Assembly: GCA_015232555.1 (NCBI GenBank)
Contig: JADFZJ010000028.1
Span: 1 to 53,354, forward strand
DNA from: Desulfamplus sp.
Lineage (GTDB): Bacteria > Desulfobacterota > Desulfobacteria > Desulfobacterales > Desulfobacteraceae
Direction: 5' to 3'
DNA: 53,354 nt
The notes beneath the pieces are model-generated. The model had not been told where the DNA came from and did not search any database. It was given only the letters and a program-made list of their open reading frames with translations. Shown here piece after piece: positions 3,649 through 23,498 of this stretch; position 1 is the stretch's first letter, and every line of letters starts with the position of its first letter. The position numbers and the translations under genes were made by a program.

Positions 3649-3650
3649 TA

Positions 3651-4556
3651 GTGTTATTTCTCAAGGGTCTTTTGAAATATTCTGGTTTGTTTATGTTAAG
3701 CGGCTGGATGTTTTTCATTGGGTTGCTGGTGGGGCGGGGAACTTCTCCTGTTGAGTTTGATACTGGATGGTTCCAGGAGAGACTCGCTGTTATTTTTGAA
3801 GATTATGAAACAGAAGAGACTGTTCTTGAAAAGCCAGAACTTGATTTTTATGCTGCTCTGCAGAAGAGTGAACTTAAAGAGGACTATGATCTTAAAGTAA
3901 ACAAGTCTTCTGCTGATAAAAAGAGTGAAGCAGGAAAATTAACACCACTCTCAGGAGATATTTCTGAGGATTTAGCTTTTAATGATCTCAAGGAACCTCT
4001 GCAAAAAAACAAAAAACCCATGACATCCAAACTGTCTCGAAAACAGACGGCGAGCCTAAGCGGAGAAATGAATGATAATGCTCAACAGAGAATCAAGCCT
4101 ATTAGCTCTTTAGTTAAAACAGATAAAATAAAGAGTTCTGGCCAGTTAGCAAGTCAATCAGAGTTAGAGCAGACAAAAAGAGCTATTTCGTCTGCAAAGA
4201 TAAAAATTGCTTCTCAACCTGTGGAGATAAAATCTTCTTCAGAAACAAAAGAACCGTTGAGTAAGCCGCTTTATAAAAAAAGTGAACAGTCTGTAGAGTC
4301 AAAAGATTATGCTGGTGGAGGAGGCTATTCTTATACCATTCAGATCGCCTCATTCAACACCGAGGCAGACGCCATGAGCCATATTGCAAAACTTGGTGCT
4401 CAAGGCTACTCAGCTTATAAGAGCAGCGGAATGGTAGGTGATAAGACATGGTACAGGATTAGAATAGGAAACTTCAATAACATAACAGAGGCAAAAGAGA
4501 GTCTTAAAAAACTTGAGAGCAGCGGAATAAAAGGGTTGATTATACAAAAGGAGTGA
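3651..4556 (+). CDS. SPOR-domain membrane protein
   Basis: A 301-aa bitopic inner-membrane protein. A hydrophobic segment at about residues 10-27 (SGLFMLSGWMFFIGLLVG) anchors it. A long hydrophilic, Lys/Ser-rich, probably unstructured periplasmic linker (about 50-220) follows, and the C-terminus (about 225-300) is a SPOR domain: YTIQIASFNTEADA...YRIRIGNFNNITEAKESL. SPOR domains bind denuded septal peptidoglycan glycan strands (FtsN, DedD, DamX, RlpA), so a role at the division site or in wall remodelling is likely. The start is GTG at 3651, 2 nt after the argS stop, implying translational coupling. The argS-SPOR pairing recalls gamma-proteobacterial argS-ftsN, but the protein is not recognisably FtsN beyond its architecture. 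Confidence 0.85.
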   Translation: MLFLKGLLKYSGLFMLSGWMFFIGLLVGRGTSPVEFDTGWFQERLAVIFEDYETEETVLEKPELDFYAALQKSELKEDYDLKVNKSSADKKSEAGKLTPLSGDISEDLAFNDLKEPLQKNKKPMTSKLSRKQTASLSGEMNDNAQQRIKPISSLVKTDKIKSSGQLASQSELEQTKRAISSAKIKIASQPVEIKSSSETKEPLSKPLYKKSEQSVESKDYAGGGGYSYTIQIASFNTEADAMSHIAKLGAQGYSAYKSSGMVGDKTWYRIRIGNFNNITEAKESLKKLESSGIKGLIIQKE

Positions 4557-4597
4557 TAACTCAAAACGAGTGATCATGCAAAAGGGTAAACAATAGC

Positions 4598-4885
4598 ATG
4601 AAAATTACACAAAAAGATGTAGAATACATTGCACACCTTGCACGTCTTGAGGTGGATGAAACTCTGGTTGATAAGTTTGCAGAGCAGATAAGCAATATTC
4701 TTCAATATATTGACAAGCTAAAAGATGCAGATGTTTCAAGTGCGGGTCTTATGGCTGGTGCTGCATTGCAGAGTAATGTTTTTAGAGAAGATATGGTCAA
4801 GCACTCTCCAGGACCGGAGATCACACTTGCAAATGCACCTGAACGACATGAAGATTTTTATACAGTTCCAAGCGTTGTAGGATAG
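4598..4885 (+). CDS. gatC: Asp-tRNA(Asn)/Glu-tRNA(Gln) amidotransferase subunit C
   Basis: A 95-aa protein of the usual GatC length. It opens with the family pattern (ITQKDVEYIAHLARLEVDE...FAEQISNILQYIDKL) and ends with the conserved ...FREDMVKHSPGPEITLANAPERHEDFYTVPSVVG. GatC clamps GatA to GatB in the heterotrimer that converts misacylated Glu-tRNA(Gln) or Asp-tRNA(Asn) to the amide form in the cytoplasm. It lies 23 bp before gatA and 41 bp after the SPOR gene, in the same transcription unit. Confidence 0.95.
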   Translation: MKITQKDVEYIAHLARLEVDETLVDKFAEQISNILQYIDKLKDADVSSAGLMAGAALQSNVFREDMVKHSPGPEITLANAPERHEDFYTVPSVVG

Positions 4886-4908
4886 ATAATAATAAGGCGG
4901 ATTATAAA

Positions 4909-6447
4909 ATGTATCTACATGAACTAACCATACAGCAGGCAAAAAAAGGTCTTGAAATAAAGGATTTCTCCTCAGTTGATCTGGTCAATGCCATGCTTGA
5001 TAGAATCGAGAAACTTGATGGAGATATAGGAGCATATATCTCTGTTGATGCAGATGGAGCAAGAAAGGCAGCGTTAGAAGCTGATCAGCGTATTTCAAAC
5101 AAAGAGCATCTTCTACTAAAAGATGAATGTAGTTCAAATAATAATAAAACTGATAGAAAGATTAATGCTCTTTGCTATCCACTGCTTGGTATTCCTGTTG
5201 CTCTCAAGGATCTGCTTTGCACAAGAGGTCTTAAAACTACCTGTGCGTCAAAAATTTTAGAGAATTTTGTACCTCAATATGATGCTACAGTTGTATCTAT
5301 GCTGAAGAATGCAGGAGCAGTTATCATCGGGAAAACCAATTTAGATGAGTTTGCCATGGGTTCATCAACAGAGAACTCAGGATTTCATATCACCAGAAAT
5401 CCCTGGAATAGAGATTATGTTCCAGGAGGTTCAAGCGGTGGTTCTGCTGCTGCGGTATCTGCCCAAATGTGTACTGCTGCACTTGGAACTGATACAGGCG
5501 GTTCAATTCGCCAGCCAGCCTCCCACTGTGGTGTTGTGGGAATAAAACCTACGTATGGACGAGTTTCAAGATATGGTCTTGTATCTTATGCTTCCTCTTT
5601 GGATCAGATTGGACCTATAACAAGAGACGTGACAGATGCTGCTATTATGCTCAATGTGATCTGCGGACACGATCCTTTAGATTCAACATCTGCAAATGTA
5701 GAGGTTCCAGACTTTACTGCTGCTTTAACTCAATTTGAGACAGATAGTCTCAAGGGAATGAGAGCAGGTATTCCCAAAGAGTTTTTATCTTTAAAGGGGC
5801 TTGATCCTGACGTTGAGCAAGCCTTTAATAACGCAAAAAAGACTTTAGAGAAACTTGGAGTTGAGATGGTTGAGGTCTCTTTGCCTCAGACAGATTATGC
5901 AGTAGCTGCCTATTATGTTATTGCACCTTCAGAGGCAAGTTCAAATCTCGCACGGTTTGACGGGGTAAGATATGGATTACGCGATACTGAAGCTAATGAT
6001 CTTATTGATATGTATAAAAAAACAAAGTCAAAAGGTTTTGGAGCAGAGGTTCAACGCCGTATTATAACAGGTACTTATGCTCTTTCTGCTGGATACTATG
6101 ATGCTTACTATGGGCGGGCAACAAAGGTTCGTGCCATGATACGTGATGATTTTACAAGGGCATTTGAAAGCTGCGATATCATTATTTCACCTGTTGCACC
6201 AACACCAGCATTTAAAATTGGTGAGAATATAGATGATCCGCTCACCATGTATCTGACAGATATTTTTACACTATCTACAAACATGGCGGGACTACCCGGC
6301 ATCTCTGTGCCTTGTGGTTTCTCATCTAAAGAGCTGCCTATTGGGTTGCAGATTATGGCAAATCGATTTGATGAGATGGCAATTATCAGAGCAGGATATG
6401 GATTGGAACATACTCTTGGTATCAAACAAAAATTCCCGGATATTTAG
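4909..6447 (+). CDS. gatA: Asp-tRNA(Asn)/Glu-tRNA(Gln) amidotransferase subunit A
   Basis: This amidase-signature glutaminase subunit releases ammonia from glutamine for transamidation of Glu-tRNA(Gln)/Asp-tRNA(Asn) by GatB. At 512 aa it is slightly long because of a Ser/Asn/Lys-rich insertion near residues 65-88. The catalytic Ser-cisSer-Lys triad is visible: Lys100 in PVALKDLLC, Ser175 in GGSSGGSAAA and Ser199 in DTGGSIRQPAS. The 75- and 24-residue spacings match those of characterised GatA enzymes. The upstream AAGGCGG is a good ribosome-binding site. A strong terminator follows. gatB is not adjacent and must be elsewhere if the complex is complete. Confidence 0.97.
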   Translation: MYLHELTIQQAKKGLEIKDFSSVDLVNAMLDRIEKLDGDIGAYISVDADGARKAALEADQRISNKEHLLLKDECSSNNNKTDRKINALCYPLLGIPVALKDLLCTRGLKTTCASKILENFVPQYDATVVSMLKNAGAVIIGKTNLDEFAMGSSTENSGFHITRNPWNRDYVPGGSSGGSAAAVSAQMCTAALGTDTGGSIRQPASHCGVVGIKPTYGRVSRYGLVSYASSLDQIGPITRDVTDAAIMLNVICGHDPLDSTSANVEVPDFTAALTQFETDSLKGMRAGIPKEFLSLKGLDPDVEQAFNNAKKTLEKLGVEMVEVSLPQTDYAVAAYYVIAPSEASSNLARFDGVRYGLRDTEANDLIDMYKKTKSKGFGAEVQRRIITGTYALSAGYYDAYYGRATKVRAMIRDDFTRAFESCDIIISPVAPTPAFKIGENIDDPLTMYLTDIFTLSTNMAGLPGISVPCGFSSKELPIGLQIMANRFDEMAIIRAGYGLEHTLGIKQKFPDI

Positions 6448-6496
6448 TCCTAATATCAACCGCAATATAATTACTATGCATAACTGATAATCGAAT

Positions 6497-6540
6497 TGTA
6501 TGGGGGAGGGACGCTACTTCCTCTCCCATACAGTTTTATA
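6497..6540 (+). terminator. Terminator after gatA
   Basis: A 13-bp stem, 6497-6509 with 6520-6532 (TGTATGGG...CCCATACA, one G.U pair), is followed by GTTTTATA. It ends the argS-gatA transcription unit about 50 nt after the gatA stop. Confidence 0.85.
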
Positions 6541-6548
6541 TTAGAAGA

Positions 6549-6594
6549 TAAGCATAACCGCTGCAATTATTTTTAAATTGAAATTCTTGAATAA
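6549..6594 (-). repeat. Dispersed ~45-bp intergenic repeat, copy A
   Basis: On the plus strand this reads ...CCGCTGCAATTATTTT...AATTGAAATTCTTGAATAA. It matches copies at 30091, 32726, 36236, 48376 and 50262-50360 (core TTCGCTGCAATNATTG, then TTTGATTGAAAT). I list the strand as the one showing the AGGAATTTCAAT...GCAGCGAA orientation. This copy precedes the ribosome-binding site of the 60-aa gene at 6622 by about 15 bp. Confidence 0.65.
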
Positions 6595-6621
6595 ATAAAT
6601 ATAATAAAAGAGGGACATAAA

Positions 6622-6804
6622 ATGAGCACTATTCAACCCCATGGAGAGAACCTTCGTAAAGCTGTTCAGTGGCTTTCAGAAGAGAAACAGTCAAAACCTG
6701 ACCAGAATTTGGTGATGCTTGCAGAAAAAGCAGCCATCAAATTTGATTTAAATCCAGATGATTCCGAATTTCTTCTAAGATTTATCAAAGAACCTCTTAA
6801 ATAG
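6622..6804 (+). CDS. Small conserved-looking hypothetical protein
   Basis: A 60-aa, soluble, mainly helical protein with no cysteine and no membrane segment. The start is well supported by AGAGGGA 7-8 nt upstream. Its sequence (NLRKAVQWLSEE..., LAEKAAIKFDLNPDDSEFLLRF) looks like a two- or three-helix module. It lies between the gatA terminator and mutL, 62 bp before mutL on the same strand, so it may be co-transcribed with mutL. I cannot assign a function. Codon use and the ribosome-binding site argue that it is real rather than a chance frame. Confidence 0.7.
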   Translation: MSTIQPHGENLRKAVQWLSEEKQSKPDQNLVMLAEKAAIKFDLNPDDSEFLLRFIKEPLK

Positions 6805-6866
6805 TTCAATATTTTAAATAGTTATAAAAAATGTTATAATGTATTCTGAAGGACAGAGGCTTTGCT

Positions 6867-8837
6867 ATGACAGAAGTAAGGATACTGCCTGAGATTATAG
6901 CCAACAAAATCGCAGCCGGTGAAGTAGTAGAACGTCCCGCCTCTGTAGTAAAAGAGCTTGTGGAAAATTCTCTTGATGCAGAAGCAAAGAGAATATCAAT
7001 TGAGATTCAGAAAGGGGGAAGTGATCTTATAAGAATATCTGATGATGGTCATGGAATGTCCCGCGAAAATGCCCTTATGTCAATTCAGAGACATGCCACA
7101 AGCAAGATTGTCAACGATGATGATCTATTTTCAATCAAAACATTTGGATTTAGGGGGGAAGCTCTACCATCTATAGCATCTGTATCTCAGTTTTCCTTGA
7201 TCACAAGAGATGCTCAATCAGAGTCTGGTACAAGAATTGATATCAGTGGTGGAAAATTGATGGATGTTTCTGAAATAGGAGCACCTATCGGTACCATGAT
7301 TGAAGTTAAAAACCTCTATTTTAATACACCTGCCCGCAGAAAATTCCTTAAAACAGTCAATACAGAGATGGGACATATTGCAGATTCTGTTGCTGCATTT
7401 GCTCTTTCTTCCTCGCATGTTCAATTGCGACTTATTCACAATGGTCGTAATGTAAAACATTTTTCCGAATCTGATGATCTTCTCTCAAGAGTTGGGATGG
7501 TTCTAAATACAGATACTATTAATGAACTCTACTCAATTGATTCGGCAGAAAATGAATACTCTAAAAATAAAGGGGTTTGTATAACAGGATATATTACAAA
7601 ACCTTCAGTATCAAGAAACTCTTCTAACAATATTCTTCTGTTTGTAAATAAACGTATGATATCCGATAGAGCCTTAGTCTCTGCAATACTAAATGGGTAC
7701 AAGGGCAGGCTAATGAAGGGGCAGTTTCCAATGGCTGTCCTCTTTATTTATATCCCTTTTGATCAGGTGGATGTTAATGTTCATCCTGCAAAACTTCAGG
7801 TGAGGTTTGCCAATCAGAGCTTAGTATTCGGGGCAGTTGTAAATGCTGTTCACAATGCACTATATCATGGCGAAATAAACTACCATAGTAATGAAATAAA
7901 AGAGAATGATGTAAAAGAGGATGTAGCCAATACTTTAATCAATGATAATCCTTATTTCTCAAGCCCATTAATCATCAATAGAGAGGCGAAGCAGTTAAGC
8001 ACTAAACATAGTGAAGATATCTTTGAAGTTCATGAATATTTACTAAAACCTGCGGAACCTGAGTATATTGATAAATTAAAACCCGAATATTTTCCACAAT
8101 TAGAACTTCAACAAAAGAATATAAAATTAGATGAGATACAAGCAACTAACTATAACGATAGAACAGAAATTGAATACAAGACAAAATTACAACCAGAATA
8201 CTCTAAGACGACGGTCAAAATCAGCGAGTTTAGCATAATCGGTCAGTTTGCAAATACCTATATTATAGCTGAATCAAAAGATGAAATGGTGTTAATAGAT
8301 CAACATGCGGCACATGAGAGGGTGGTTTATGAGAGGCTCAAAAAAAGATCAGAGGGATTTAAATCACCTTCACAGGATTTGATTGTGCCTGAAATTGTTG
8401 AATTTAACTATAGAGAGGCTGCTCTGTTAGAAAGGTTAATACCTCAGCTTGCCAGTGTAGGAATTGCGATTGAACCATTTGGAGGTAGAAGTTTTGTCGT
8501 TAAATCTGTGCCTTCAATAATAGATGGCAAATCGATAAATACTATACTCAAAGATATTGTTGATTTGGGAGAAGATAGTATATGTTCAGAAAATAATAAA
8601 AGTATAAATAATAATATTTTACATAATGGCATAAGCCTATGGCTTGATAATATATTAATACTTATGGCTTGCCACAGTGCTATAAGGGCAAATCATCAAC
8701 TTAATTCAATGGAGATGTCTCAACTACTTGCTGACCTTGAAAGGTGTGATAACCCATACCATTGCCCACATGGGAGACCTACCATTATATCTTTTAGTAA
8801 GAAAGAGCTGGAGAAGCGGTTTAAAAGGATTGGATAA
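6867..8837 (+). CDS. mutL: DNA mismatch repair endonuclease MutL
   Basis: A 656-aa GHKL ATPase that links MutS mismatch recognition to strand incision. N-terminal motifs are intact: NKIAAGEVVERPASVVKELVENSLDA (residues about 11-36, motif I), SDDGHGM (motif II) and GFRGEALPSI (motif III). A variable, Glu/Asn/Lys-rich linker spans about 340-455. The C-terminal dimerisation domain carries DQHAAHERVVYE starting at residue 478, which fits the DQHA(X)2E(X)4E metal-dependent nicking motif of MutL from bacteria lacking MutH. The accessory motifs ACHSAIRA and CPHGRP are also present. This should therefore be an endonuclease-type MutL. An AAGGAC-like ribosome-binding site precedes the ATG. mutS is not in the window. 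Confidence 0.96.
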   Translation: MTEVRILPEIIANKIAAGEVVERPASVVKELVENSLDAEAKRISIEIQKGGSDLIRISDDGHGMSRENALMSIQRHATSKIVNDDDLFSIKTFGFRGEALPSIASVSQFSLITRDAQSESGTRIDISGGKLMDVSEIGAPIGTMIEVKNLYFNTPARRKFLKTVNTEMGHIADSVAAFALSSSHVQLRLIHNGRNVKHFSESDDLLSRVGMVLNTDTINELYSIDSAENEYSKNKGVCITGYITKPSVSRNSSNNILLFVNKRMISDRALVSAILNGYKGRLMKGQFPMAVLFIYIPFDQVDVNVHPAKLQVRFANQSLVFGAVVNAVHNALYHGEINYHSNEIKENDVKEDVANTLINDNPYFSSPLIINREAKQLSTKHSEDIFEVHEYLLKPAEPEYIDKLKPEYFPQLELQQKNIKLDEIQATNYNDRTEIEYKTKLQPEYSKTTVKISEFSIIGQFANTYIIAESKDEMVLIDQHAAHERVVYERLKKRSEGFKSPSQDLIVPEIVEFNYREAALLERLIPQLASVGIAIEPFGGRSFVVKSVPSIIDGKSINTILKDIVDLGEDSICSENNKSINNNILHNGISLWLDNILILMACHSAIRANHQLNSMEMSQLLADLERCDNPYHCPHGRPTIISFSKKELEKRFKRIG

Positions 8838-8904: not shown

Positions 8905-8940
8905 TAAAAAAAAAAGGGACTGATTTCTCAGCCCCCTTTC
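8905..8940 (-). terminator. Terminator between mutL and porin (convergent)
   Basis: An interrupted hairpin (GGGACTGA / TCAGCCCC, with one A-C mismatch) has an A-rich left flank at 8905-8915, giving a run of Ts on the minus strand. It lies 40 bp past the end of the minus-strand porin gene and can terminate that transcript. The plus-strand T tract is short. Confidence 0.6.
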
Positions 8941-8980
8941 TACTAGCTTATTACTTTATATTTGCTACAGTTGGTTCAGA

Positions 8981-10270
8981 TTAGAATTTAATAGCAAGCT
9001 GGCTAACAAGAACTTTCTGTGCTTCGAGTTGAAGATCTAAAGAGTCATCAACATCTATATCTGTATAAAGATAGGTAAGCCACAACTCTGTATTAGTAGC
9101 AATTGTGTACTTCATCCATACGTTACAAGATATTGCTGAAGCATCAGCATCTATAGTGTTTACTACAATATCTTCCTCTGGCTGCAAATAGGCGAACTTT
9201 GCACCAAGTGAGAAAATATCCATTGGGCTATATTTTGCCTGGAATAAAATACCCTGCACTCCGCTGCTGTCCTGTAAAATTTCAAAAGGATCAAATACGT
9301 CAACAAAACAATATCCATTCAATTCACCAGCAAAAGGAGTATTCATATCCATAGGACCAAATGTGTCTCCCCATTTGTTGAAGTAAGAATATTGCATCTC
9401 ATTATCATCTGGATCAGCACCTAAAGCATAAACAAGCTCTGCACCAATGTTTACACCAGCAGCAACATCAGCATATCCACCAAGAAAGAACTGTGTACCC
9501 ATATAGTCTGTATCACCATCATTGGTATCACCAGTTGCAAAATCAAGCTCACTTAACAGAGTTATAGCTCCAAGTTTAGCAGAACCCTGAATACCGGCCA
9601 TAATCGGAGAGTTGTCTGTATCTGTACCATCATTAAGCCCAGCAACAAAAACATTACCTGTGAAAGCATCACAAGTATAGTTCACGTTAAGAGCATAAAA
9701 ATCTTGATCTTCTGAGTCAACTTTTACATCATTATCATCTATAAGACCTGTATCTTCGCTAATTTTTGCGTAGAGAACACTTGTTACAACTGGTGCAAAA
9801 TTAAGATCAAACTTAAAACCAGTAGCATTGGCATCAAGAACCTGATTCACACCTAAACCCATATACTGCTGTCCAGCTCTCAAACTCCACCACTCCTGTT
9901 TGATATCAACAAATGCTCTGTCAACATCAATCGTGTTTGTAAAGGCTTTTCTTGGACGGGCTGCACTACCTGCAACAATTGCACCATCATTCACGAATCC
10001 ACCACCAGTATAATCTGAACCCCAAACACCTTCACCCCAGTCTGCTCTAAGTTGAATGCTGACATTATCAGCTACATTGATTTTTGTACCCATTCTAAGT
10101 CTTTGATCAAAATAACTGGAATCTGCATTATTAGTGTAATTCTGGCTGCTTATATCCCAACCACGAACACGAAACTCACCAGACAGATTAACTCTATCAT
10201 CTGCATACACAGGTGCAATAAACATTACTGCACATACAACCGCTATAAAAAGTATTGTAAATCTCTTCAT
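8981..10270 (-). CDS. Outer-membrane beta-barrel porin
   Basis: A 429-aa exported protein. I placed the start at the ATG complementary to 10268-10270 because it is preceded by AGGAGG and opens a clean signal peptide (MKRFTILFIAVVCAVMFIAPVYA, cleavage after AYA). The frame is open for another 19 codons upstream. The mature protein has alternating-residue strands typical of a 16-18-stranded barrel (SGEFRVRGW, QRLRMGTKINV, VSIQLRADWGEG, VDIKQEWWSLRAG) with acidic loops rich in Asp/Asn, and ends in ...LAIKF with the terminal Phe recognised by BamA. It resembles general or alginate-export-type porins of Desulfobacterota. Its N-terminal strands resemble those of the porin at 14561, with which it brackets two FG-GAP proteins. 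Confidence 0.85.
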   Translation of the reverse strand: MKRFTILFIAVVCAVMFIAPVYADDRVNLSGEFRVRGWDISSQNYTNNADSSYFDQRLRMGTKINVADNVSIQLRADWGEGVWGSDYTGGGFVNDGAIVAGSAARPRKAFTNTIDVDRAFVDIKQEWWSLRAGQQYMGLGVNQVLDANATGFKFDLNFAPVVTSVLYAKISEDTGLIDDNDVKVDSEDQDFYALNVNYTCDAFTGNVFVAGLNDGTDTDNSPIMAGIQGSAKLGAITLLSELDFATGDTNDGDTDYMGTQFFLGGYADVAAGVNIGAELVYALGADPDDNEMQYSYFNKWGDTFGPMDMNTPFAGELNGYCFVDVFDPFEILQDSSGVQGILFQAKYSPMDIFSLGAKFAYLQPEEDIVVNTIDADASAISCNVWMKYTIATNTELWLTYLYTDIDVDDSLDLQLEAQKVLVSQLAIKF

Positions 10271-10455
10271 CTCTTTTGTTTTCCTCCTACAAAAAACAAA
10301 TAATATTGTTTTAATTTTAATTAACAAACCCTTAACACAATTTCAAATTACATCTCTTTATCTCTTTAAAGTTATATTTTTTGGCTGCACCTCCTTTCTT
10401 TTTTTATTGTATTTTTAACAAAAAAACTCTTTCTTCTTTTAACAATTTCCGTGTA

Positions 10456-10484
10456 GCGATATCAACATTAAAAGTCCATGTCAA
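10456..10484 (-). promoter_or_regulatory. Possible promoter of the 8981-10270 porin
   Basis: Minus-strand TTGACA (10479-10484), 17 bp, then TATCGC (10456-10461). The -35 is consensus and the -10 is weak. The leader to the porin ATG would be about 180 nt. The rest of 10271-10573 is AT-rich without a visible gene. Confidence 0.45.
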
Positions 10485-10573
10485 GCATTAATAAAAATTT
10501 AATATTAATAAAATTCATTTTATAAAAAAAACGGTTTTCACCATAAAGTCTGTCATTTAGGCAATAGTAAATG

Positions 10574-12340
10574 TTACTGCATCAATTCATAAGCGGTTAT
10601 TACACTTTCAGAATCTGAAAATGTTGATATAGAGTCTTTTATAACATTAGCAATAACAAGTTCTTTAGAACCGTCATTATCAAAATCGCTAATTATAAAG
10701 TCACTCACTCTGCCAGTTTGTTCTGGAGTTGACCACTGCAATGTTAATCCTGTGTTGTTCCAAAAACTACAATTTATAACTCCTTTGCTGTATCTTTTAA
10801 ATTTGCTTAAATATCCGCCTGTAATATCACTGTTTGATGCGTAAAGAATCTCTATATTTCCATCTCCATTTATATCAGCAGACCTTACAGAGCAGGGAAA
10901 GTATTCAAACTCATCATCGTCTTTAGGAGTCTCTTTAGGTAGTTTAAAATAGTTCATATTACCGCCTGTTCTGTTCAGGTCTCTCCAAATTGAACCTCCA
11001 TTATTGCTAAAAACAGTCAGGTGTTCAGCATCATCATAAGCTACGACCATAGGATTGCTATCTCCTGAGATATCTTCAAACATAGCACCAAGAACATTTG
11101 CCTTGCCAGCTTCAAGAATCTGCTCTGACTGAACATATCTTTCACCATCCCAAACCATTTTATATATTGGAGAGTCGTAAATATTATATTTTCCTGATCT
11201 CTGTTTCTGCCCTAAAAGTATTTTACCTTCACTTTTTGTATCAATAATAGAGAAATACCAAGGATTGTTTTTAACAATCTCAACATATTGAGAACCATTA
11301 TATTCAATCACAAAAGAGCTTGGCATATTTTTATCAGCGTTTAAGGTGGAAACAAAAATCTCTTCTACGCCATTATTGTTGATATCGCCCACCCCAACTG
11401 CGATATATGTCAAAAGTCTGTTTTTTGGAGTTTCTGTTACTTTTACAAATTGGTTGCCTGAAAATCTATAAATATAAACTGAGCTATCAGATATAAAAAC
11501 TGTTTCCATAATGTTATCTTTGTCAGTATCTCCCACAGCTATTCCAGTAATAAGATGTTTAAATATAGGGCTTTGCCATGTACCTGTGCCGCCCCTCACG
11601 CTGTTGGTTACAGAAAACTCTGGATTTGGGCTTTTTGCTGAATCTGTATTTTGTAGCTGTCCATTTGACTGAGAAGCAGATGGTCTGATAACAAAGTTAG
11701 AATTAAGCTTTTGTTGTCCTGCATGAGCTGGTGATGCTGGTTGTGAAAGGGAGGAAGACGGGGCAGTGGCAACAATATTTACATTAGACTGTATTGACTG
11801 TTGTGGCTCTGTGGCTGCTGTAGCTCCAAATTTGTTAAAAACTGTTTCATTAATAGTTGTAGCAAACTGATTGATAGCAGGAATAACACCGCCTAACTCA
11901 TTAATTTGTTTAAAAAAAGATATTGGTGCACTCTTCCCTGAAATATCAACGAGTTTTGAATCAATACTTGTACCGTTGCCTATAACAGTTACACTGCCGT
12001 AAATTACAAAATCTGCTTTAAGCTCTCCCCCGACAAGCAGAGCAAAACTCTCTCCAGTAAACCCTTTAATACCTTCTACTGCTTTCTGGACACTCTCTTT
12101 GTCAATTACCCTTACCTGATCTTTGAACGAGAGGCGTGAAGCGAGCATGTCTTGAATACCCTTTTTCAAAAAATCAAGATTCTGTTCAGCGTTGATATCA
12201 AAAGGTAATACAGCAATCTGTAGTGTTTCTGAGTATGCTAAAGGTGATTGGTAAAAATATGAAATAGAGAAGATAACTACTGTAATTAAAATAAAGGAAA
12301 ATTTGGATAGCATGCTAATTATTTGAGTTAGTTTTTTCAA
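10574..12340 (-). CDS. Exported TolB-N/FlgO-like plus FG-GAP (VCBS-type) repeat protein
   Basis: A 588-aa secreted protein. The start is taken as the TTG complementary to 12338-12340 because CAGGAG lies 6 nt upstream; the ATG 36 nt further upstream has no ribosome-binding site. A signal/anchor segment (about 9-37) precedes an alpha/beta domain (about 40-175) resembling the TolB N-terminal/FlgO/CsgG fold: IAVLPFDINAEQNL...LASRLS...ADFVIYGSVTV. A Ser/Gln-rich linker (about 185-245) leads to a C-terminal beta-propeller made of FG-GAP repeats with calcium-type loops: GDTDKDNIMETVFI, GDINNNGVEEIFVS, ADINGDGNIEILYAS, DFDNDGSKELVIAN. The paralogue is divergently encoded at 12599. Function unknown; a periplasmic or outer-membrane-associated binding scaffold is likely. 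Confidence 0.75.
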   Translation of the reverse strand: MKKLTQIISMLSKFSFILITVVIFSISYFYQSPLAYSETLQIAVLPFDINAEQNLDFLKKGIQDMLASRLSFKDQVRVIDKESVQKAVEGIKGFTGESFALLVGGELKADFVIYGSVTVIGNGTSIDSKLVDISGKSAPISFFKQINELGGVIPAINQFATTINETVFNKFGATAATEPQQSIQSNVNIVATAPSSSLSQPASPAHAGQQKLNSNFVIRPSASQSNGQLQNTDSAKSPNPEFSVTNSVRGGTGTWQSPIFKHLITGIAVGDTDKDNIMETVFISDSSVYIYRFSGNQFVKVTETPKNRLLTYIAVGVGDINNNGVEEIFVSTLNADKNMPSSFVIEYNGSQYVEIVKNNPWYFSIIDTKSEGKILLGQKQRSGKYNIYDSPIYKMVWDGERYVQSEQILEAGKANVLGAMFEDISGDSNPMVVAYDDAEHLTVFSNNGGSIWRDLNRTGGNMNYFKLPKETPKDDDEFEYFPCSVRSADINGDGNIEILYASNSDITGGYLSKFKRYSKGVINCSFWNNTGLTLQWSTPEQTGRVSDFIISDFDNDGSKELVIANVIKDSISTFSDSESVITAYELMQ

Positions 12341-12598
12341 CGCTTTCTCCTGATTGATTCTACTATTGCACAACATTGTCTTATTTTATAAAATTCAAAA
12401 GGGGCTACAAACAATAAAATGACATTCTAATGATAGATAGATAATTTGGCAAGGGATAATTTGGACAAAAATATTTTTGATTATCTATTTCATTTATAGT
12501 TTATTGACTTTTACTATTCTATTATATAGTGTCGAACTTCATTTATTTATGGTTTGAATAATAACAACTTTGATCAAAATTTTTTGAGAGACAAATCA

Positions 12599-14353
12599 AT
12601 GCAAAAATACCGTTTTAAACCTTATCATTCATATATCCTTAATAGTTTATATTGTTTTATAACTCTATTCCTTATAAACATGCCGCTAACTTCTAATACT
12701 CTTGCAGATACCTCAAACATCCAGATAGATTCAACAGTGAAAACAGTTGCTGTATTTGCGTTTGAAGTTATTTCCAAGGAAGATAACAGTTTTATCGGAA
12801 AAGGAATGGGTAAGATGCTTTGCAGCAGGATAGGTTCTGATAACACCATTCAGGTAAAATGTATGGATGGTCTGCCGTCAGCCTATGGTCTTGATCTGAG
12901 CGGTTCATCAATGGCTGGAAAAACAGCAGGCATCGCTCAACTCAATGGTGTGGATTATATTCTTGCAGGCACAGTAACCATTGCAGGAGATAGTGTAAGC
13001 AGTGATGCAAGGCTTATTGAAGTGCTACGCCCTGAACAGGTGAAATTTATAAATGCTTCAGGCACAGGGGTAGATGATATTATGAACCACGCTTCTGCTA
13101 TATCAGAAAAGGTTCAATTTGCCATTACAGGCAACACCACTCAAACACAAATGGACAGTCAAGCCATTCAGAGCACTTCTCCTATTCATCCAATGGCAGG
13201 AGCATTTAAAAAGAGCAGCGAACAGCCAACAACATTACAAAATAAGGGAGTTATCTCACCATTAAACGTGAGTAAGAAAGAAATAGAGAGAACTTCTGCT
13301 ATATCCTCTTTCCACTCGTCAATTTTACTCAATCGTAAATTTGATATGGAGATAAGAGGAATTGCAACATCAGATATTGATGGAGATGCACGATTGGATA
13401 TGGTTGTTATGGATGACCACGCAATTTCGTTTTTCAGTTTTGAGAACAATAACCTTGTGAAAAAAAGCGAGTATAGCTCTCCTTATTATAACAAAAATAT
13501 CTCTATTGATGCTCTTGATCTAAATGGCAATGGGAGAAGCGAACTATTTATCACCTCACTTGGTAAAAATAACTATCTTAAATCATATATTATAGAATGG
13601 AACGGAAGAGAATTTGAGACGATTATAAAAAATGTTGAATGGTATTTCAGGGTTGTTGCTTTTAATGGAAAATATAGTTTAGCAGGACAACAGCGGGGAC
13701 ATGACGAAATCTTTTTAGGTTCTATTTATGCTCTTGATTTGAGTGGCAACAAAATTATCAAAAATGGGCAGATAGGTGTTGAAAAAGGTAACTTTGATAT
13801 ATTTAGTTTTGCTCCTATATCCGCTTCTGCATTTATGACAAATAAAGTGGGCAGCACCATTGCTAATCATCCTTATATTATATGGTTCGACAGATCAGGC
13901 TTTCTTAACCTTGGAGACGAGTGGGGGGCAAGAGAGTGGAAAAGCCCGCAATCCTTTGGCTCAACTGCTATGTTTATTGAGCAAGATAAAGGCAGGGATA
14001 ATTTAAAAGAGAGAGTTTATATAAATAGTCGGATATTTACAGGAGATATTGATAATGATGGTATTGCTGAGATTATAACTGCCAGCAATTCTGATATGGC
14101 AAAAGGATATTTGTCAGGATACAGAAAATTCAACCAGGGCAATATTCAGGTTATGGCATGGAAAGACGGTTCAATGGTAGATATCTGGAAAGGGAATCCT
14201 GCTACAGGTTATATTTCTGACTTTAATATTATGGATATGGATGGAGACTCTTATCCAGAGCTTATATATTCAGTTGTCACCGATACAGGAATAGTTATGA
14301 ATAGCTCACACAGCACAATTTTTATTGAAAAGATTGTTGACTTGCATAAATAA
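12599..14353 (+). CDS. Exported TolB-N/FlgO-like plus FG-GAP repeat protein (paralogue)
   Basis: A 584-aa paralogue of the preceding gene, divergently transcribed across 258 bp. I prefer ATG 12599 (weak GAGAG upstream) to a TTG at 12554, because it starts close to the hydrophobic export segment (about 13-36, ending TSNTLADTS). The order is the same: TolB-N-like domain (VKTVAVFAFEVIS...LNGVDYILAGTVTIAG, about 48-170), Ser/Gln-rich linker, then FG-GAP repeats with SDIDGDARLDMVV, LDLNGNGRSELFIT, GDIDNDGIAEIITAS and MDMDGDSYPELIYS. Shared phrases such as KSYIIEWNG / SFVIEYNG and ITASNSDMAKGYLSGYRK / LYASNSDITGGYLSKFKR show common ancestry. A weak promoter-like pair (TTGACT 12504, TATAGT 12525, 15-bp spacer) lies upstream. 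Confidence 0.75.
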   Translation: MQKYRFKPYHSYILNSLYCFITLFLINMPLTSNTLADTSNIQIDSTVKTVAVFAFEVISKEDNSFIGKGMGKMLCSRIGSDNTIQVKCMDGLPSAYGLDLSGSSMAGKTAGIAQLNGVDYILAGTVTIAGDSVSSDARLIEVLRPEQVKFINASGTGVDDIMNHASAISEKVQFAITGNTTQTQMDSQAIQSTSPIHPMAGAFKKSSEQPTTLQNKGVISPLNVSKKEIERTSAISSFHSSILLNRKFDMEIRGIATSDIDGDARLDMVVMDDHAISFFSFENNNLVKKSEYSSPYYNKNISIDALDLNGNGRSELFITSLGKNNYLKSYIIEWNGREFETIIKNVEWYFRVVAFNGKYSLAGQQRGHDEIFLGSIYALDLSGNKIIKNGQIGVEKGNFDIFSFAPISASAFMTNKVGSTIANHPYIIWFDRSGFLNLGDEWGAREWKSPQSFGSTAMFIEQDKGRDNLKERVYINSRIFTGDIDNDGIAEIITASNSDMAKGYLSGYRKFNQGNIQVMAWKDGSMVDIWKGNPATGYISDFNIMDMDGDSYPELIYSVVTDTGIVMNSSHSTIFIEKIVDLHK

Positions 14354-14489
14354 CATAGTTTACCTGTAAAAACGCTTGACAACCTTAGTATCCTATGTGT
14401 AAGAGAAAATACTTAATCCTTTTATTATTATAAATTTTCATTCAAGCAGTTCATATCTTTTTGTAATCATATATGTATAGAGGTTATTG

Positions 14490-14495
14490 TATAAT
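14490..14495 (+). promoter_or_regulatory. Possible -10 box for the 14561 porin
   Basis: A perfect TATAAT lies 65 nt before the porin start codon, implying a ~60-nt leader. No clear -35 is present at 16-18 bp, so an activator may be needed, or the match may be chance in AT-rich DNA. Confidence 0.35.
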
Positions 14496-14560
14496 TTGGA
14501 GGCTTTAACCTTTATATTTGTTTTTTAATCTATATTAACCGGGAGAAAAAGGAGAAAAAG

Positions 14561-16180
14561 ATGAAAAAAGTTGTAATGTTTGCTCTATTGAGCGTTTTTG
14601 TTGTGGGTATGTCCATACCCGCATCTGCCCTGGAAACAGATTTCAGCGGCGAATTTTATGTTGAAGGAATTCTCAATTCTGCACCAAACATGCTTGATAG
14701 TGACAACACAAGCGATTACAGACAGATGAGACTGCGTGTTCAGACTGATTTTAAGGTGAGTGACCATTTAAAGCTTACCACACGATTTGATGCTTTAGAA
14801 AAGGTGTTAAGTTCCAAAGATTCTGCTTTTGACAACAATTTAGATGAAGAAAATATCGATTTTGACAGAGCGTATCTCACATACATAAGCCCAATTGGTA
14901 TGTTTGAGGTTGGAAGAATGAAAGGTGTTGTATGGGGCACTACATTCTGTGATGATGAATCTGATACAGACAGAATTAAATACACTGTACCAATTGAGAT
15001 GGGAGAGGGTAAGCTCTATTTGGCAGCAGTGGCTGAAAAAGTAACCGAAAATGACACAATGATAGATGATGATAATGACAAGTATTATTTAGGTGCGGTT
15101 TATAAGACTCAGGAATATTCAACGGGTCTGTTGTCTGCAATGTACAGTTTTAACAAATTTCAGGATCCAGGACAGAAATTTGCTTATGATGCTTTGACAG
15201 ATTCTTATGAAAACAATAAAAACTTATCTTCTTATAGAAATTATCTTGGAACCAACGTTGCACAAGACGAACTACCATCTTATATAGGATGGTATGGAGC
15301 TAATGCAAAGAGTGCTATGACAGCCAAAGCATACGCAGAGGCTGCTGCAAAATATCAGGCTGCTGGTAAACTTCCTGAGGCTCAGGCTGCTGCTCAGGCT
15401 GCTCAAGCTGCTAAAGCAAATATTGCTGCTGATTGGCCCACTAAAGAATTTGCTGCTCAATCAGCTTTGAGCACATTTGCTACAAGAGGCTCAACAAATG
15501 ACGCTAAAGTTTATCTGCTTTCACCATATTTTCAAGGAAAGTTTGGGAATTTGAGCCTTGAGGGCGAGCTTGACTATGTGTTTGGAACTTTAGAGTATGC
15601 TTCATACGAGGATGTTGATGTAGAAGGTTTTGCATATTTTGTTCAGGCTGGTTATGATTTCTCTCCTATTGCTGTTCAAGCTGGTTTTGCACACGCTTCA
15701 GGTGATTCAAACTATTCTGATGATAAAGTAGAGAGCATTGGTTTTGTTTCTCCTGGAGTAGATTGGGAAAAACTCTTTATTCTTAACTCAGATTATCACG
15801 GACTGGAAAGTTCTCTTGGAAATGGAGTGGGTAACCATGTTGGTGCTGGTTTTGCAACTTCTTCAACTGCCATGCTTGACGGTTATCAGATGTTCTATGC
15901 TGGTCTTGACTATTCTATCACAGATGCTATTACTCTCGGTCTAATAGCTGGACTTTCCAAAGCAGATGACGTTCCAGCAGGTGGATATGATGATGATCAG
16001 GGTATTGAGTATGATTTCACATTTACATGGGCTATTACTGACAACCTAACATATAAAGCCATTGCAGCATATCTTGACGGTGGTGACTACTGGACAACCC
16101 GTGCAAGCGGTGGTGTTGTTGATCCTACAGTTGATCCTGAAATTTATGCACTGTTCCATAGATTGACACTTACTTTCTAA
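14561..16180 (+). CDS. Outer-membrane porin with an Ala-rich helical insertion
   Basis: A 539-aa exported barrel protein. The signal peptide MKKVVMFALLSVFVVGMSIPASA is cleaved before LETDFSGEF, with AGGAGA ahead of the start. Barrel strands such as YRQMRLRVQTDFKV, HLKLTTRFDAL and MFEVGRMKGVVWG, and a closing ...FHRLTLTF with terminal Phe, indicate an outer-membrane porin. Residues about 248-305 form an Ala/Gln/Lys-rich amphipathic stretch (AKAYAEAAAKYQAAGKLPEA, then AQAAAQAAQAAKAN) that is unlike barrel sequence and looks like a long helical hairpin inserted in a loop. N-terminal strands resemble the porin at 8981 (SGEF, RLR..., D-FDRAY/VDRAF). It follows the FG-GAP gene by 207 bp and ends in a strong terminator. 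Confidence 0.85.
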   Translation: MKKVVMFALLSVFVVGMSIPASALETDFSGEFYVEGILNSAPNMLDSDNTSDYRQMRLRVQTDFKVSDHLKLTTRFDALEKVLSSKDSAFDNNLDEENIDFDRAYLTYISPIGMFEVGRMKGVVWGTTFCDDESDTDRIKYTVPIEMGEGKLYLAAVAEKVTENDTMIDDDNDKYYLGAVYKTQEYSTGLLSAMYSFNKFQDPGQKFAYDALTDSYENNKNLSSYRNYLGTNVAQDELPSYIGWYGANAKSAMTAKAYAEAAAKYQAAGKLPEAQAAAQAAQAAKANIAADWPTKEFAAQSALSTFATRGSTNDAKVYLLSPYFQGKFGNLSLEGELDYVFGTLEYASYEDVDVEGFAYFVQAGYDFSPIAVQAGFAHASGDSNYSDDKVESIGFVSPGVDWEKLFILNSDYHGLESSLGNGVGNHVGAGFATSSTAMLDGYQMFYAGLDYSITDAITLGLIAGLSKADDVPAGGYDDDQGIEYDFTFTWAITDNLTYKAIAAYLDGGDYWTTRASGGVVDPTVDPEIYALFHRLTLTF

Positions 16181-16239
16181 ACAATCCAATTGAAGATAAT
16201 TTAAGTAATTTTTATAATTGCAAAGAGATATAAAATTTA

Positions 16240-16276
16240 AAGCCTGAGACAGATAATTTCTGTTTCAGGCTTTTTT
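16240..16276 (+). terminator. Terminator after porin
   Basis: A 14-bp stem, 16240-16253 with 16259-16272 (AAGCCTGAGACAGA / TCTGTTTCAGGCTT, one G.U), a 5-nt loop and a T tract. It is placed 60 bp after the porin stop and 15 bp before the end of the convergent stress-protein gene. Flanking A/T runs allow it to work in both directions. Confidence 0.9.
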
Positions 16277-17285: not shown

Positions 17286-18707
17286 TCAGATGCTTCCGCC
17301 GCCAAGTACAGCATAAAGATTTATTTGATTAACTGCCTTTATAAGCCTTAAGGAGACAAGCCCCTGTTTTGCTGAATATAGAGAACGATGTGCGTCCAAT
17401 ACGCTCAAATAGCTGTCAATACCTTTGTTGTAACGCTCTTCTGAAAGCCTGTATGTTTCGGATGTCGCCTCTACTAAAGAGAGATGTGCTGATATTTGCT
17501 CATCTACAGTACCTTTTACGGCAAGAGTATCGGCAACCTCCCTGAATGCTGTCTGAATTGTCTTTTCATATTGAGTCAATATAATCTTACGTTCAGCCTT
17601 GCTTACTCTGAACGCTGCCCATGTACGTGCATCAAAGATTGGAACAGAGATTTTAGGTACAAATGCCCATGTGTCTGAACCAGAAGCGAAAAGCCCTGAC
17701 AAATCATCACTTGCAGTGCCAAATGATGTGGTCAGAAAGATGCGTGGAAAAAATGCAGCTCTTGCGGCACCGATATAGGCATAAGCACCTTTGAGACGAT
17801 GCTCTGCACCCATAATATCAGGGCGATTAAAAAGTGCGGTAGAGGACAGACCTGGAAGAATCTCTTTTGGAGGGGTAATACTGCTAAGTCCAACTGGAAG
17901 AAGAGATTCTTCCACTGGAGCACCTGCAAGAAGATTCAGGGCATTTTGATCCTGAGCTACCAACTGTTTAAATCGGGCAACATCTTCACGAGCAGTATAT
18001 ACAGGTATCTGTGCACGACGAAGATCTAATTTAGTGATAATTCCAACCTCATGCTGCTTCTCAATCAGCTTGTATGCAGTTTGCTGGTTATCAAGAGTTG
18101 ATTTTGAAATCTCAAGATTTTCTCTATCCGCAGCAAGGGTAAGATATGCTCTGCTGATTCCAGCTATTAAAGCTATCTGTGCACCTTTTCGAGCCTCATC
18201 AGTTGTCAAATACTCCTCAAGTGCCTGATCTTTAAGGCTTCTGACTCTTCCGAACAGATCAAGCTCCCACGAGGCTATTCCAACACTTAAGCCATATTTT
18301 TCTGTTGTTCTTGGATAACCTGGATTGGTAAGATCAGATGCTGTCTTCTGTTTAGCCCAATCTCCTGCTGCGTTTATCACTGGAAAAAGCTCTGCACGCT
18401 GAATCCCATAAATTGCACGAACCTTTTCTGCATTCAATGTTGCAAGTCTAAGATCACGGTTATTTTCAAGAGCGATTTTGATAATAGTTTCCAAATTCCT
18501 GTCAGTGAAAAACTCCTGCCAGCTTAGATTTTTGATATCTGATGGTTCTCTGCCTATTTCTTCTGTTACCTTATCTTTCCTGTTTTTGTAGGCATCACCC
18601 TGTGGGAAGTGCTCAGGAATGGGTGCTTTAGGTTTTATATATTCTGGTATCAAAGAGCAGCCGCACAGAGAGATTGCTATTACCATAACCAGCAATATTT
18701 TATTCAT
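17286..18707 (-). CDS. RND efflux outer-membrane channel (NodT/OprM-type lipoprotein)
   Basis: A 473-aa TolC-superfamily outer-membrane factor. It starts with a lipoprotein signal (ILLVMVIAISLCGC, acylated Cys17) followed by SLIPEYIKPKAPIPEHFP, the usual opening for the OprM/NodT group. It carries two OEP repeats with the characteristic long helices (SWEFFTDRNLETIIKIALENN-like start, ASWELDLFGRVRSLKDQ, FNRPDIMGAEHRLKGAYAYIGAARAAFFPRI). It exports substrates delivered by the RND pump and adaptor encoded upstream. It is separated from the pump gene by 130 bp containing a 10-bp-stem hairpin, which may reduce or process downstream message. Confidence 0.93.
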   Translation of the reverse strand: MNKILLVMVIAISLCGCSLIPEYIKPKAPIPEHFPQGDAYKNRKDKVTEEIGREPSDIKNLSWQEFFTDRNLETIIKIALENNRDLRLATLNAEKVRAIYGIQRAELFPVINAAGDWAKQKTASDLTNPGYPRTTEKYGLSVGIASWELDLFGRVRSLKDQALEEYLTTDEARKGAQIALIAGISRAYLTLAADRENLEISKSTLDNQQTAYKLIEKQHEVGIITKLDLRRAQIPVYTAREDVARFKQLVAQDQNALNLLAGAPVEESLLPVGLSSITPPKEILPGLSSTALFNRPDIMGAEHRLKGAYAYIGAARAAFFPRIFLTTSFGTASDDLSGLFASGSDTWAFVPKISVPIFDARTWAAFRVSKAERKIILTQYEKTIQTAFREVADTLAVKGTVDEQISAHLSLVEATSETYRLSEERYNKGIDSYLSVLDAHRSLYSAKQGLVSLRLIKAVNQINLYAVLGGGSI

Positions 18708-18767
18708 AATTGTAGTCCTCCTGTAAATTTAAAACTTAAAATATCAAATAAATATAGGCTTTTTGAG

Positions 18768-18793
18768 TAGAGACGCACGGTCATGCGTCTCTA
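18768..18793. repeat. Perfect 10-bp inverted repeat (REP-like) in the efflux operon
   Basis: TAGAGACGCA (18768-18777) and TGCGTCTCTA (18784-18793) flank a CGGTCA loop in the gap between the RND pump stop and the outer-membrane factor start. There is no T tract on either strand, so it is not a classical terminator. An AGAGACGCA...TGCGTCTCT hairpin of this type is reminiscent of repetitive palindromic elements seen in diverse bacteria. I find no second copy in this window. Confidence 0.6.
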
Positions 18794-18837
18794 TAGTGTA
18801 ATATTTAGTATAAAAAATTATGGCAAAAATGTGTTAT

Positions 18838-21800
18838 TTATGCTGATTTTTGTTTGCCAAACATCTTTGTTACTATAACAAAAAAGAGCGGTATAAAAAT
18901 AAGGTCAATAAATGTTGCAGATAACATTCCGCCTGCAACAGCAGTTCCGATTGCATTTTGAGCACCCGCTCCCGCACCAGTTGCAATTGCAAGCGGCAGA
19001 ACACCAAAGAAAAATGCCAAAGATGTCATAATAACTGGTCTAAACCTTGTTTTTACAGCATCAAGAGTAGCATCAACAAGACCCATGCCATGATTCATCC
19101 TCTCTTTGATAAACTGAATAATCAAAATGGCATTTTTGGTTGACAGTCCAAGTGTTGTAAGAAAACCTATCTGAAAATAGACATCGTTTGGAAATCCCCG
19201 CAAATGTGTAGCAAGAACTGCACCAAATACACCTAATGGCAGCATCATCATATTTACAACAGGTATTGTCCAGCTCTCGTAGAGTGCAGCAACACAGAGA
19301 AATATTACAAGTATTGAAAACGCATATAAAAGAGGTGCCTGAGAGCCAGCCATTCTCTCTTGATAAGAGAGTCCTGTCCAGTCAAACCCGATTCCCTGCG
19401 GCAGCTTTGCAGCAAGTTCTTCCATAGCCTGCATAGCTTCACCAGAACTTCTTCCCGGTGCTGGCTCACCCCATATATTTACAGAAGGGAATGCGTTGAA
19501 CCGCTCCAATTTTGGAGAGCCGTAACTCCAATGTCCGCTTGCAAAAGAGGAGAATGGTACCATTTTACCCACAGTATTGCGTACATAGAGTCTGTTTAAA
19601 TCTTCTGGTGCCATTCTGTATGGTGCATCTGCCTGTACAAAGACTCTTTTTACACGACCAGCCTGAATAAAGTCGTTTACGTATGCACTTCCAAATGCTG
19701 CTGATATGGTGTTGTGGATTGAAGAGATAGGTACGCCAAGAGCACCAGCTTTTTCCCAATCCACATCAATCATGTATTGGGGCACAGCCTCCATTCCGTT
19801 TGGTCTTACCCTGACAAGTCTTGGATCCTGTGATACCATGCCAAGAAGCTGGTTGCGTGCATTTATAAGTTCAGCATGTCCAAGACCTCCGCGATCCAGC
19901 AACTGAAAATCAAAACCTGTGGCATTACCAAGTTCTATAACAGGTGGTGGTGGAAATGCAAATGCCATTGCATTACGAATCTGAGATAACACTCCCATTG
20001 CTCTTCCAGCTACTGCCTTTACTTTAAGATCACCTCTTTGACGCAAGTCCCAATCTTTAAGTTTGACAAATCCCAACCCCATATTTTGACCTTGACCACT
20101 AAAACTTATACCTGAGATAGCCATCATAGACTCTACAGCCTCTTTCTCGTTTGTCATAAAATGGTCTTTTATCTGATTCATTACATCTTTGGTCTGCTCT
20201 AATGTTGAACCTGACGGAAGCATAGCCTGAACCAACAAAAACCCCTGATCCTCGTCAGGCAGATATGAAGTAGGCATACGTTGAAACAGATAACCCACTG
20301 ACGCTACAATAATAACAAACAGAAAGATATATCTTAGTCTTTTTGCAATGGCGTGACCAATAAGCCCTACATACATATCTCTGATACGAAAAAAAACACG
20401 GTCAAACAGTCTGAAAAATGGTCTTAAGAAAAATATTGCATTGTCTGATGGTTCATGCCCTTTAGCTACAGGCTTTAAGAATGAGACACAAAGCACAGGA
20501 GTCAAAATAAGGGCAACAACCACAGACAGAAGCATTGAAGCGGCAATGGTTATGGAAAACTGACGGTAGATTACACCAGTAGAACCCGGGAAAAATGCCA
20601 TTGGAGCAAATACTGCCGCAAGAACAACTCCAATACCTATCAGGGCACTTGTGATCTCATCCATTGATTTTTCTGCTGCCGCATAAGGTCCAAGCCCCTC
20701 TTCCATCATAAGCCTCTCAACGTTCTCAACAACTACAATAGCATCATCAACCAAAAGACCGATTGAGAGAACCATGGCAAACATTGTCAACATGTTTATA
20801 GAGAAACCAAACAGCCCCAAAGCAGCGAATGTTCCTAAAAGTACAACAGGGACAGCTATGGTCGGAATCAAGGTTGCCCTGATATTACCCATAAACAGAT
20901 ACATGATAACAAATACCAAGAAAATAGCCTCAAAAAGAGTTTTAACAACCTCCTCAATTGCTACTTTGGTAAAAGGTGTGGTTTCATAAGGATAGATAAC
21001 CTTCATACCGGGAGGAAAATATCGGCTCATCTCTTCTAATCTTGTCTTGACTGCATCTGCTGTATCTAAGGCATTTGCACCAGCAGCATTTCTAATTGCC
21101 ATTGCAGCAGCAGGCTTATCAATATAGTAAGCTTCAACATCATAACGTTCTGTCCCAAGTTCTGTGCGTCCGATATCCTTGACTCGAACAACTGAGCCGT
21201 CAGTGTTGGTTCTAAGAGGGATAGCTGCAAACTCCTCAGGAGTTTGAAGAAGATGCTGTATAACAATCGATGTATTTAATCTCTGCCCCTTTGGTGCTGG
21301 TGATGCACCAAATTGACCGGCTGAAACCTCAACATTATAGTTTCTAAGTGCAACAATAACATCTTCAATGGTCAAGTGGTAGTTGGTCAGCTTGTCAGGG
21401 TCAAGCCAGATACGCATGGCATATTGTGTTCCAAAACTTTCGACCTCACCAACACCAGGCACGCGAGAGAGTATCTTTTCAAGATTTGATTGGGCATAAT
21501 TTCTAAGATCATTTCCATCCATACTCCCATCTTCTGAAATAAGACCCACAATAATCAGGTAGTTTCTCGTAGATTTACTAACCTTTACACCTTGACGCTG
21601 AACAACATCTGGAAGATTTGCCATTGCAAGCTGGAGTTTATTTTGTACCTTTGACCACGCAATATCAGGATCAGTACCCGGGGCAAATGTAAGTTCAAGA
21701 CGCACCGAGCCAGACGAAGAGCTGTTGGCAGACAGATAGAGCATATTATCAAGACCTGTCATCTTCTGCTCAATGATCTGGGTTACTGTATTTTCAACAG

Positions 21801-23405: not shown

Positions 23406-23498
23406 CAGAAAACCTCCGAATATCAGTTAAATAACTTATTTGTATTTTTACTTTATTAATTTTTGTTTGTTAAATTCAGTTTGCTAAATAGTCCATTT

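Follow-up and report, generated by a model that had tools for sequence, protein, structure and literature searches.

The window analysed here is a 53,354-nt stretch of Desulfamplus sp. (contig JADFZJ010000028.1 of GCA_015232555.1, positions 1 to 53,354), in which two genes for FG-GAP beta-propeller proteins, FG-GAP A and FG-GAP B, each lie next to the gene of an outer-membrane porin, porin A and porin B. The pairing of such FG-GAP genes with porins is strong in the family and order to which the window belongs, and in the phylum Desulfobacterota it is recurrent, not general. The N-terminal domain of the FG-GAP protein is homologous, as judged by profile comparison, to the N-terminal domain of the BamA encoded in the same genome. 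The explanation favoured here, held tentatively and as somewhat short of probable, is that the FG-GAP protein could be a soluble periplasmic factor, built like TolB and linked to the beta-barrel assembly machinery (BAM), that assembles or escorts the adjacent porin, a job like that of BamB. We infer this function from four observations: the FG-GAP genes and the porins are paired, this pairing is conserved, the predicted fold is TolB-like, and the N-domain is shared with BamA.

The original prediction for this stretch had claimed a genetic pairing of FG-GAP protein and porin, and this adjacency was found to be kept in other genomes. Searches with FG-GAP A gave matches in 57 of 58 genomes, its own included, some of these matches being BamA or single-domain proteins. 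From the matches listed, 72 propeller-bearing FG-GAP places were picked by hand, in 53 of the 58 genomes, and a porin (profile A2 or A3) was found within 2 kb of 53 of the 72 places; random placement would yield about 0.2 places by a crude estimate. Seen from the porins, an FG-GAP gene lies within 2 kb of 36/50 strong A2 porins and 23/48 strong A3 barrels. Profiles A2 and A3 were derived from porins of FG-GAP loci, while DESULF_POR1 (NF033939) is an independent model, not built from these loci, and 32 of its 47 matches (down to E 1e-7) were located within 2 kb of an FG-GAP gene. Among full-length FG-GAP rows (430 aa or more), 57/84 had a profile-matched porin within 700 bp, a count that leaves out L097, a second copy of L043. 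Genome G036, negative with the FG-GAP A query, contains a divergent family match (E 8.5e-14, G036:C175:42-3036) on the same contig as its DESULF_POR1 match and ~1.3 kb from it.

Across the phylum, the family profile matched 313 of 395 genomes at E 1e-10 or better. Fifty-one loci from 48 families were picked by hand among the matches listed (three families were taken twice, and six loci came from the order of the window), and 14 of them had a profile-matched porin within 700 bp, three being weak matches. Distances were used because spurious small open reading frames (ORFs) intervene: 14/17 porin matches were within 700 bp and only 9/17 were immediate neighbours. At locus L193 a barrel-like neighbour without a profile match was found. 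A literature search found no paper joining FG-GAP, porin and Desulfo-, and the papers on FG-GAP with an adjacent porin were unrelated by title; no wider absence is claimed.

The type of the neighbouring porin follows the FG-GAP phylogeny. On a tree of 80 of the 86 FG-GAP rows (short, masked and duplicate rows were dropped), porin type changes 10 times over 58 labelled rows, whereas 2000 shuffles averaged 32.4 changes and never gave fewer than 26. In the FG-B clade each of the 11 rows has a same-strand F porin downstream. FG-GAP A of the window sits in a separate clade, where the porins of the genus and of genome G010 are of S type. It is proposed that partner types track each other because separate FG-GAP paralogues would serve separate porin subfamilies.

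The two pairs of the window represent different branches of this pattern. Four ORFs, porin A (-), FG-GAP A (-), FG-GAP B (+) and porin B (+), are arranged in mirror order, so that the mirror-image duplicated locus described in the original prediction stood as to order and orientation, but not in the sense of a recent duplication. FG-GAP A and B are paralogues whose alignment runs over nearly the full length (26% identity, 164 bits, E 1e-47 in a single comparison), and they sit in different supported clades that contain other genera. The porins, also predicted to be paralogues, proved to be remote relatives: they share 27% identity over 122 N-terminal residues including the signal peptide (BLAST, E 3e-5) and were assigned to different subfamilies by score clustering (A to S, B to F). 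Recent local duplication of the pair was therefore rejected, and the remoteness of the porins and their different subfamilies indicate that the association is old. The phrases said to be shared within both pairs were found in the translations, namely ASNSDITGGYLSKFKR and ASNSDMAKGYLSGYRK in the FG-GAP proteins and SGEF, RLR and DVDRAF / DFDRAY in the porins.

Both porins match DESULF_POR1 remotely (porin A, E 9e-10, 37.9 bits; porin B, E 5.7e-14, 52.5 bits; neither reaches the curated cut-off of 250 bits), and are therefore related; by these scores they are relatives of the DESULF_POR1 porins and not members. Neither of the outcomes that the original prediction named as refuting it, a lack of conserved adjacency in other genomes or porins of unrelated families, was thus obtained. 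They have a signal-like N-terminus, a terminal Phe and antiparallel strands, the strands being judged on the model of porin A, a barrel with ~18 strands by manual count (predicted local distance difference test, pLDDT, 75). The best Foldseek matches of this model were Campylobacter MOMP and AlgE (E about 1e-14), with OmpM1 also among the matches. The match of porin A to profile A2 holds by construction, porins A and B both being rows of A2. Porin B scored 24.7 bits with Pfam Alginate_exp, just below the cut-off of 25.2, and contains, around residues 255-300, an insertion that is rich in Ala and probably helical, of which porin A shows no counterpart.

A third claim, the architecture of the FG-GAP protein, also held: an alpha/beta domain, probably of the TolB-N/CsgG/LpoB class, is joined to an FG-GAP propeller with calcium-type loops. 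FG-GAP_3 (PF13517) matched FG-GAP A with 55.1 bits and FG-GAP B with 55.6 bits, above the gathering cut-off of 26.9, and all 63 family members at E 0.01 or better. The calcium-type motif D.[DN].[DN]G, scored by pattern only, occurs two to four times in 62/63 members and once in the other. The AlphaFold2 model of FG-GAP A (mean pLDDT 84.8) consists of an alpha/beta domain, a disordered linker and a propeller. In a Foldseek search with this model TolB ranked second and third, with 559 and 544 alignment columns covering both domains; the match to TolB 7mx5 had E 4.4e-9 over 559 columns with template modelling (TM) scores of 0.25/0.34, and whole-model TM scores against TolB were low (0.21-0.34). 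The overall fold of the FG-GAP protein is thus predicted to be TolB-like, with an alpha/beta domain and a propeller. The matches listed in a further structure search cover the propeller and mix sialidases and integrins in the top rows, so the blade count is not fixed at six or seven.

At the level of domain models, PF04052 (TolB_N) had no match in FG-GAP A or B up to E 0.1; it was found in 1/63 family members at E 0.01 or better, and the FG-GAP gene of one relative (G044) was above its cut-off. With the same threshold of E 0.01, the N-domain matched CsgG in 21/63 members and LpoB in 6/63, FG-GAP A and B themselves matching neither. Orthology with TolB was rejected: PF04052 is absent from A and B, a canonical tolB is present separately in a tolQ-tolR-tolA-tolB-pal run elsewhere in the genome (L203, genes named by reading the translations), and the N-domain profile gave 4 bits on that canonical TolB.

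The TolB-like fold bears on a first alternative, in which the FG-GAP protein would be a scaffold or tether: it would attach to assembled porin trimers on their periplasmic side and connect them with peptidoglycan or Tol-Pal, stabilising the outer membrane, with no role in assembly. It draws on the two TolB matches that span both domains; E. coli TolB reportedly binds porins (Rigal 1997). In diderm Firmicutes, OmpM porins act as membrane tethers according to one account (PMC10628300), and OmpM1 was among the matches of porin A. The low whole-model TM scores, the presence of a canonical tol-pal run in the same genome and an N-domain profile that scores far lower on TolB than on BamA (4 vs 79 bits) make this alternative unlikely.

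That BamA is an 884-aa frame at L204:2791-5445 (contig C14), found in the genome-wide search with FG-GAP A (E 6.7e-15). Its N-domain occupies residues 33-163, where the N-domain profile gave the 79 bits, with 28% identity over 137 aa, and is followed by five POTRA domains and an Omp85 barrel. The gene after bamA, named from its sequence, is presumably Skp-like. A query composed of the BamA N-domain and first POTRA had matches in 303 of the 395 genomes of the phylum (E 1e-8 or better), a number that is not readable as BamA alone, since the query holds the N-domain and may match FG-GAP or single-domain genes. Among the matches listed (best first), most span N-domain and POTRA in frames of ~880-950 aa from many families, and ten begin at query residue 26-70. 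The N-domain also occurs alone: a 283-aa single-domain relative (L201:4360-5211, contig C29; 102 bits) overlaps the gatB stop and contains two KPFWKFW motifs, and relatives of this protein, 180-270 aa long, adjoin gatB in many related genomes.

These results bear on the function put forward in the original prediction, a porin-associated substrate-binding, gating or surface-attachment module acting on the finished channel. Partner types that follow porin subfamilies are what channel specificity would predict, and the propeller resembles those of integrins and sialidases. This similarity is generic, however, a lipobox-like motif was found in few family members, the N-domain is common to BamA and the gene occurs widely across the phylum, in many cases with no adjoining porin. 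The analysis gave no pointer to binding, gating or attachment, and this alternative is considered improbable. Because the N-domain is shared with BamA and the gene is spread across the phylum, often with no porin beside it, a role in assembly or as an envelope scaffold fits better.

BamB is the propeller partner of BamA in E. coli, and is a lipoprotein. With the BamB model TIGR03300, none of the 58 relatives had a match above cut-off and the own genome had no match; FG-GAP A and B had no BamB model match in NCBIfam up to E 0.1. In the passage concerned, Anwari et al. 2012 (PMC3359395) saw no sign of BamB, BamC or BamE among delta-proteobacteria and expect other proteins in their roles. Cells without BamB are described as having severe defects in the assembly of generalized porins and LamB (statement in PMC6529638).

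Under the assembly or escort role favoured here, the N-domain of the FG-GAP protein would dock on the BAM complex, either on the equivalent domain of BamA or on the binding partner of that domain, and the calcium-loop propeller would handle the nascent porin chain or trimer. This role would match what the BamB propeller of E. coli does for high-volume porins, and it would be exerted in a lineage in which no BamB was found. A wider proposal, which we regard as speculative and rather doubtful, is that the Desulfobacterota have their own branch of BAM, with an extra TolB-N-like domain in BamA and with BamB replaced by soluble propellers that carry the same domain, one porin-specific adaptor paralogue per subfamily, often encoded next to its client and docking through the shared domain. 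The stand-ins for BamB, BamC and BamE in delta-proteobacteria were left open in the part of Anwari et al. 2012 that deals with them, and the FG-GAP family would be a concrete, testable candidate. If the proposal is true, client-specific assembly factors are encoded beside the outer-membrane protein that they serve.

Several observations weigh against a porin assembly factor linked to BAM. Domains of the CsgG/LpoB/TolB_N type are used in several unrelated envelope systems, and their sharing need not mean a BAM function. A lipobox-like motif, searched with a simple pattern, was found in just 2/63 family members, while BamB is a lipoprotein, and sub-cut-off matches to the BamB model exist in 14/58 relatives. 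Strict co-occurrence of FG-GAP genes with an N-domain BamA was considered and not seen, since 14 of 20 listed FG-GAP-negative phylum genomes match the BamA query. The pairing itself is incomplete: 19/72 FG-GAP places in relatives have no matched porin (some are at contig ends), and neither do 37/51 phylum FG-GAP loci at 700 bp. The three matches above the DESULF_POR1 cut-off do not adjoin FG-GAP genes. In G054 the 12 kb around two strong porins (L202) contain no FG-GAP match, the sole family member of this genome being on another contig. As for partner specificity, in 4/11 FG-B rows there is a G porin upstream as well, and the labelling rule favoured the downstream gene. Finally, at the mutL locus porin type changes nine times on the MutL tree and eight times on the FG-GAP tree; descent therefore explains much of the pattern.

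This last point concerns a third alternative, according to which FG-GAP genes and porins were neighbours in an ancestral gatCAB-mutL region and are kept together by descent without direct interaction. A full-length FG-GAP gene is present in 24 mutL-linked loci, and in every one of them the pair is near mutL, so that many adjacencies are not independent; their porins are 11 N, 6 G, 3 S, 1 F and 3 unclassified (three further mutL loci have no full-length FG-GAP gene in the set). The near-equal label changes also agree with this alternative, and concerted replacement of the pair, as measured by these changes, was set aside, so that only two individual, well-supported cases were relied on. Locus L053 falls among N-type genomes by its MutL, yet its FG-GAP protein and porin are both of G type; on the MutL tree the window pairs with L037 as its sister, yet the two carry different pairs. 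Both cases speak against mere neighbourhood, and are equally explained by differential loss of older paired paralogues. Porin placement also varies: of the 58 labelled porins, 33 follow the FG-GAP gene on the same strand and 10 follow it in convergent orientation; 12 lie upstream in divergent orientation and 3 upstream with the strand unchanged. Pairs are also seen again in further families of the phylum. Neighbourhood by descent is accordingly thought quite unlikely, and the alternatives rank in the order tether or scaffold, binding or gating, and neighbourhood. In many relatives a conserved run leads into the porin locus (1888-8837 in the window); it comprises argS, a SPOR protein, gatC, gatA and mutL, where argS and gatC are putative names, given by length.

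The features of the locus are listed below. The ORF of porin A extends over 8981-10327, and the ATG at 10270 is the likelier start, giving 429 aa.

Features of the FG-GAP/porin locus, with positions in the window
Feature	Position	Strand	Basis
Terminator-like hairpin 3' of porin A	8910..8941	-	pattern scan, weak evidence
Porin A, subfamily S, outer-membrane beta-barrel, signal peptide, C-terminal Phe	8981..10270	-	ORF; DESULF_POR1; predicted barrel
FG-GAP protein A, 600 aa: signal peptide, TolB-N-like domain, disordered linker, beta-propeller	10574..12376	-	FG-GAP_3, AlphaFold2, Foldseek
Propeller of FG-GAP A, residues 265-600, calcium-type loops at residues 283, 331, 501, 564	10577..11584	-	model, Foldseek, motif
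N-terminal alpha/beta domain of FG-GAP A, residues 48-184	11825..12235	-	N-domain profile, 163 bits
Intergenic region common to both divergent FG-GAP genes	12377..12553	.	ORF coordinates
FG-GAP protein B, 599 aa from TTG start; 584 aa from ATG at 12599	12554..14353	+	paralogue of A; FG-GAP_3
N-terminal domain of FG-GAP B, residues 61-195	12734..13138	+	N-domain profile, 134 bits
Porin B, subfamily F, 539 aa, ends in Phe	14561..16180	+	ORF; DESULF_POR1; Alginate_exp just below cut-off
Terminator-like hairpin 3' of porin B	16239..16273	+	pattern scan, weak evidence

The pattern scan for terminators detected 7 sites, against 4.0 +/- 2.0 in shuffles, and found no terminator-like site between the FG-GAP gene and its partner porin in either pair. 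The hairpin positions would be compatible with co-transcription of the FG-GAP gene and the porin. A promoter scan was uninformative (29 sites vs 29.3 in shuffles). A reading of the locus as a defence system was rejected, as none of the four proteins had a PADLOC match at E 0.01.

Similar mirrored quartets were found in three more genomes of the genus (L040, L043 and L045). In L038 and L044 no A-type porin was found adjoining its FG-GAP gene, and the L042 contig breaks off within the A gene. The best named match of FG-GAP A is a Desulfamplus metagenome-assembled genome, and over the C-terminal 300 residues compared both FG-GAP genes are identical to those of G007, from the same genus.

Beyond porin B, positions 17286-24137 of the window contain a single run of genes for an OEP-family outer membrane efflux protein, a 1043-aa ORF of the size of a resistance-nodulation-division pump, an HlyD/CusB-type fusion protein and a TetR regulator; genes of the clusters in this region adjoin the F porin in L044 and L045. 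A 1894-aa protein with a histidine kinase at its C-terminus is encoded at 24368-30052.

Among known systems, BamB is like the FG-GAP protein in being a periplasmic beta-propeller, and the common role with abundant porins is only proposed; the FG-GAP protein differs in its FG-GAP repeats, its extra N-terminal alpha/beta domain and the absence of a lipobox-like motif in 61/63 members. TolB has the same two-domain architecture, alpha/beta domain and propeller, as predicted for the FG-GAP protein, which has another propeller family, a long disordered linker and porin neighbours instead of tolQRA-pal. The porins of the window match the homotrimeric DESULF_POR1 porins remotely and belong to other subfamilies. 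In the Desulfobacterota BamA with a TolB-N-like domain, the homologous N-domain stands before five POTRAs and an Omp85 barrel, not before a propeller. WD40-Omp85 proteins, called reminiscent of a BamA-BamB fusion in a passage of Heinz and Lithgow 2014 (PMC4104836), likewise tie a propeller to outer-membrane protein assembly; theirs is fused to Omp85, whereas the FG-GAP propeller belongs to a protein of its own, which has one domain in common with BamA.

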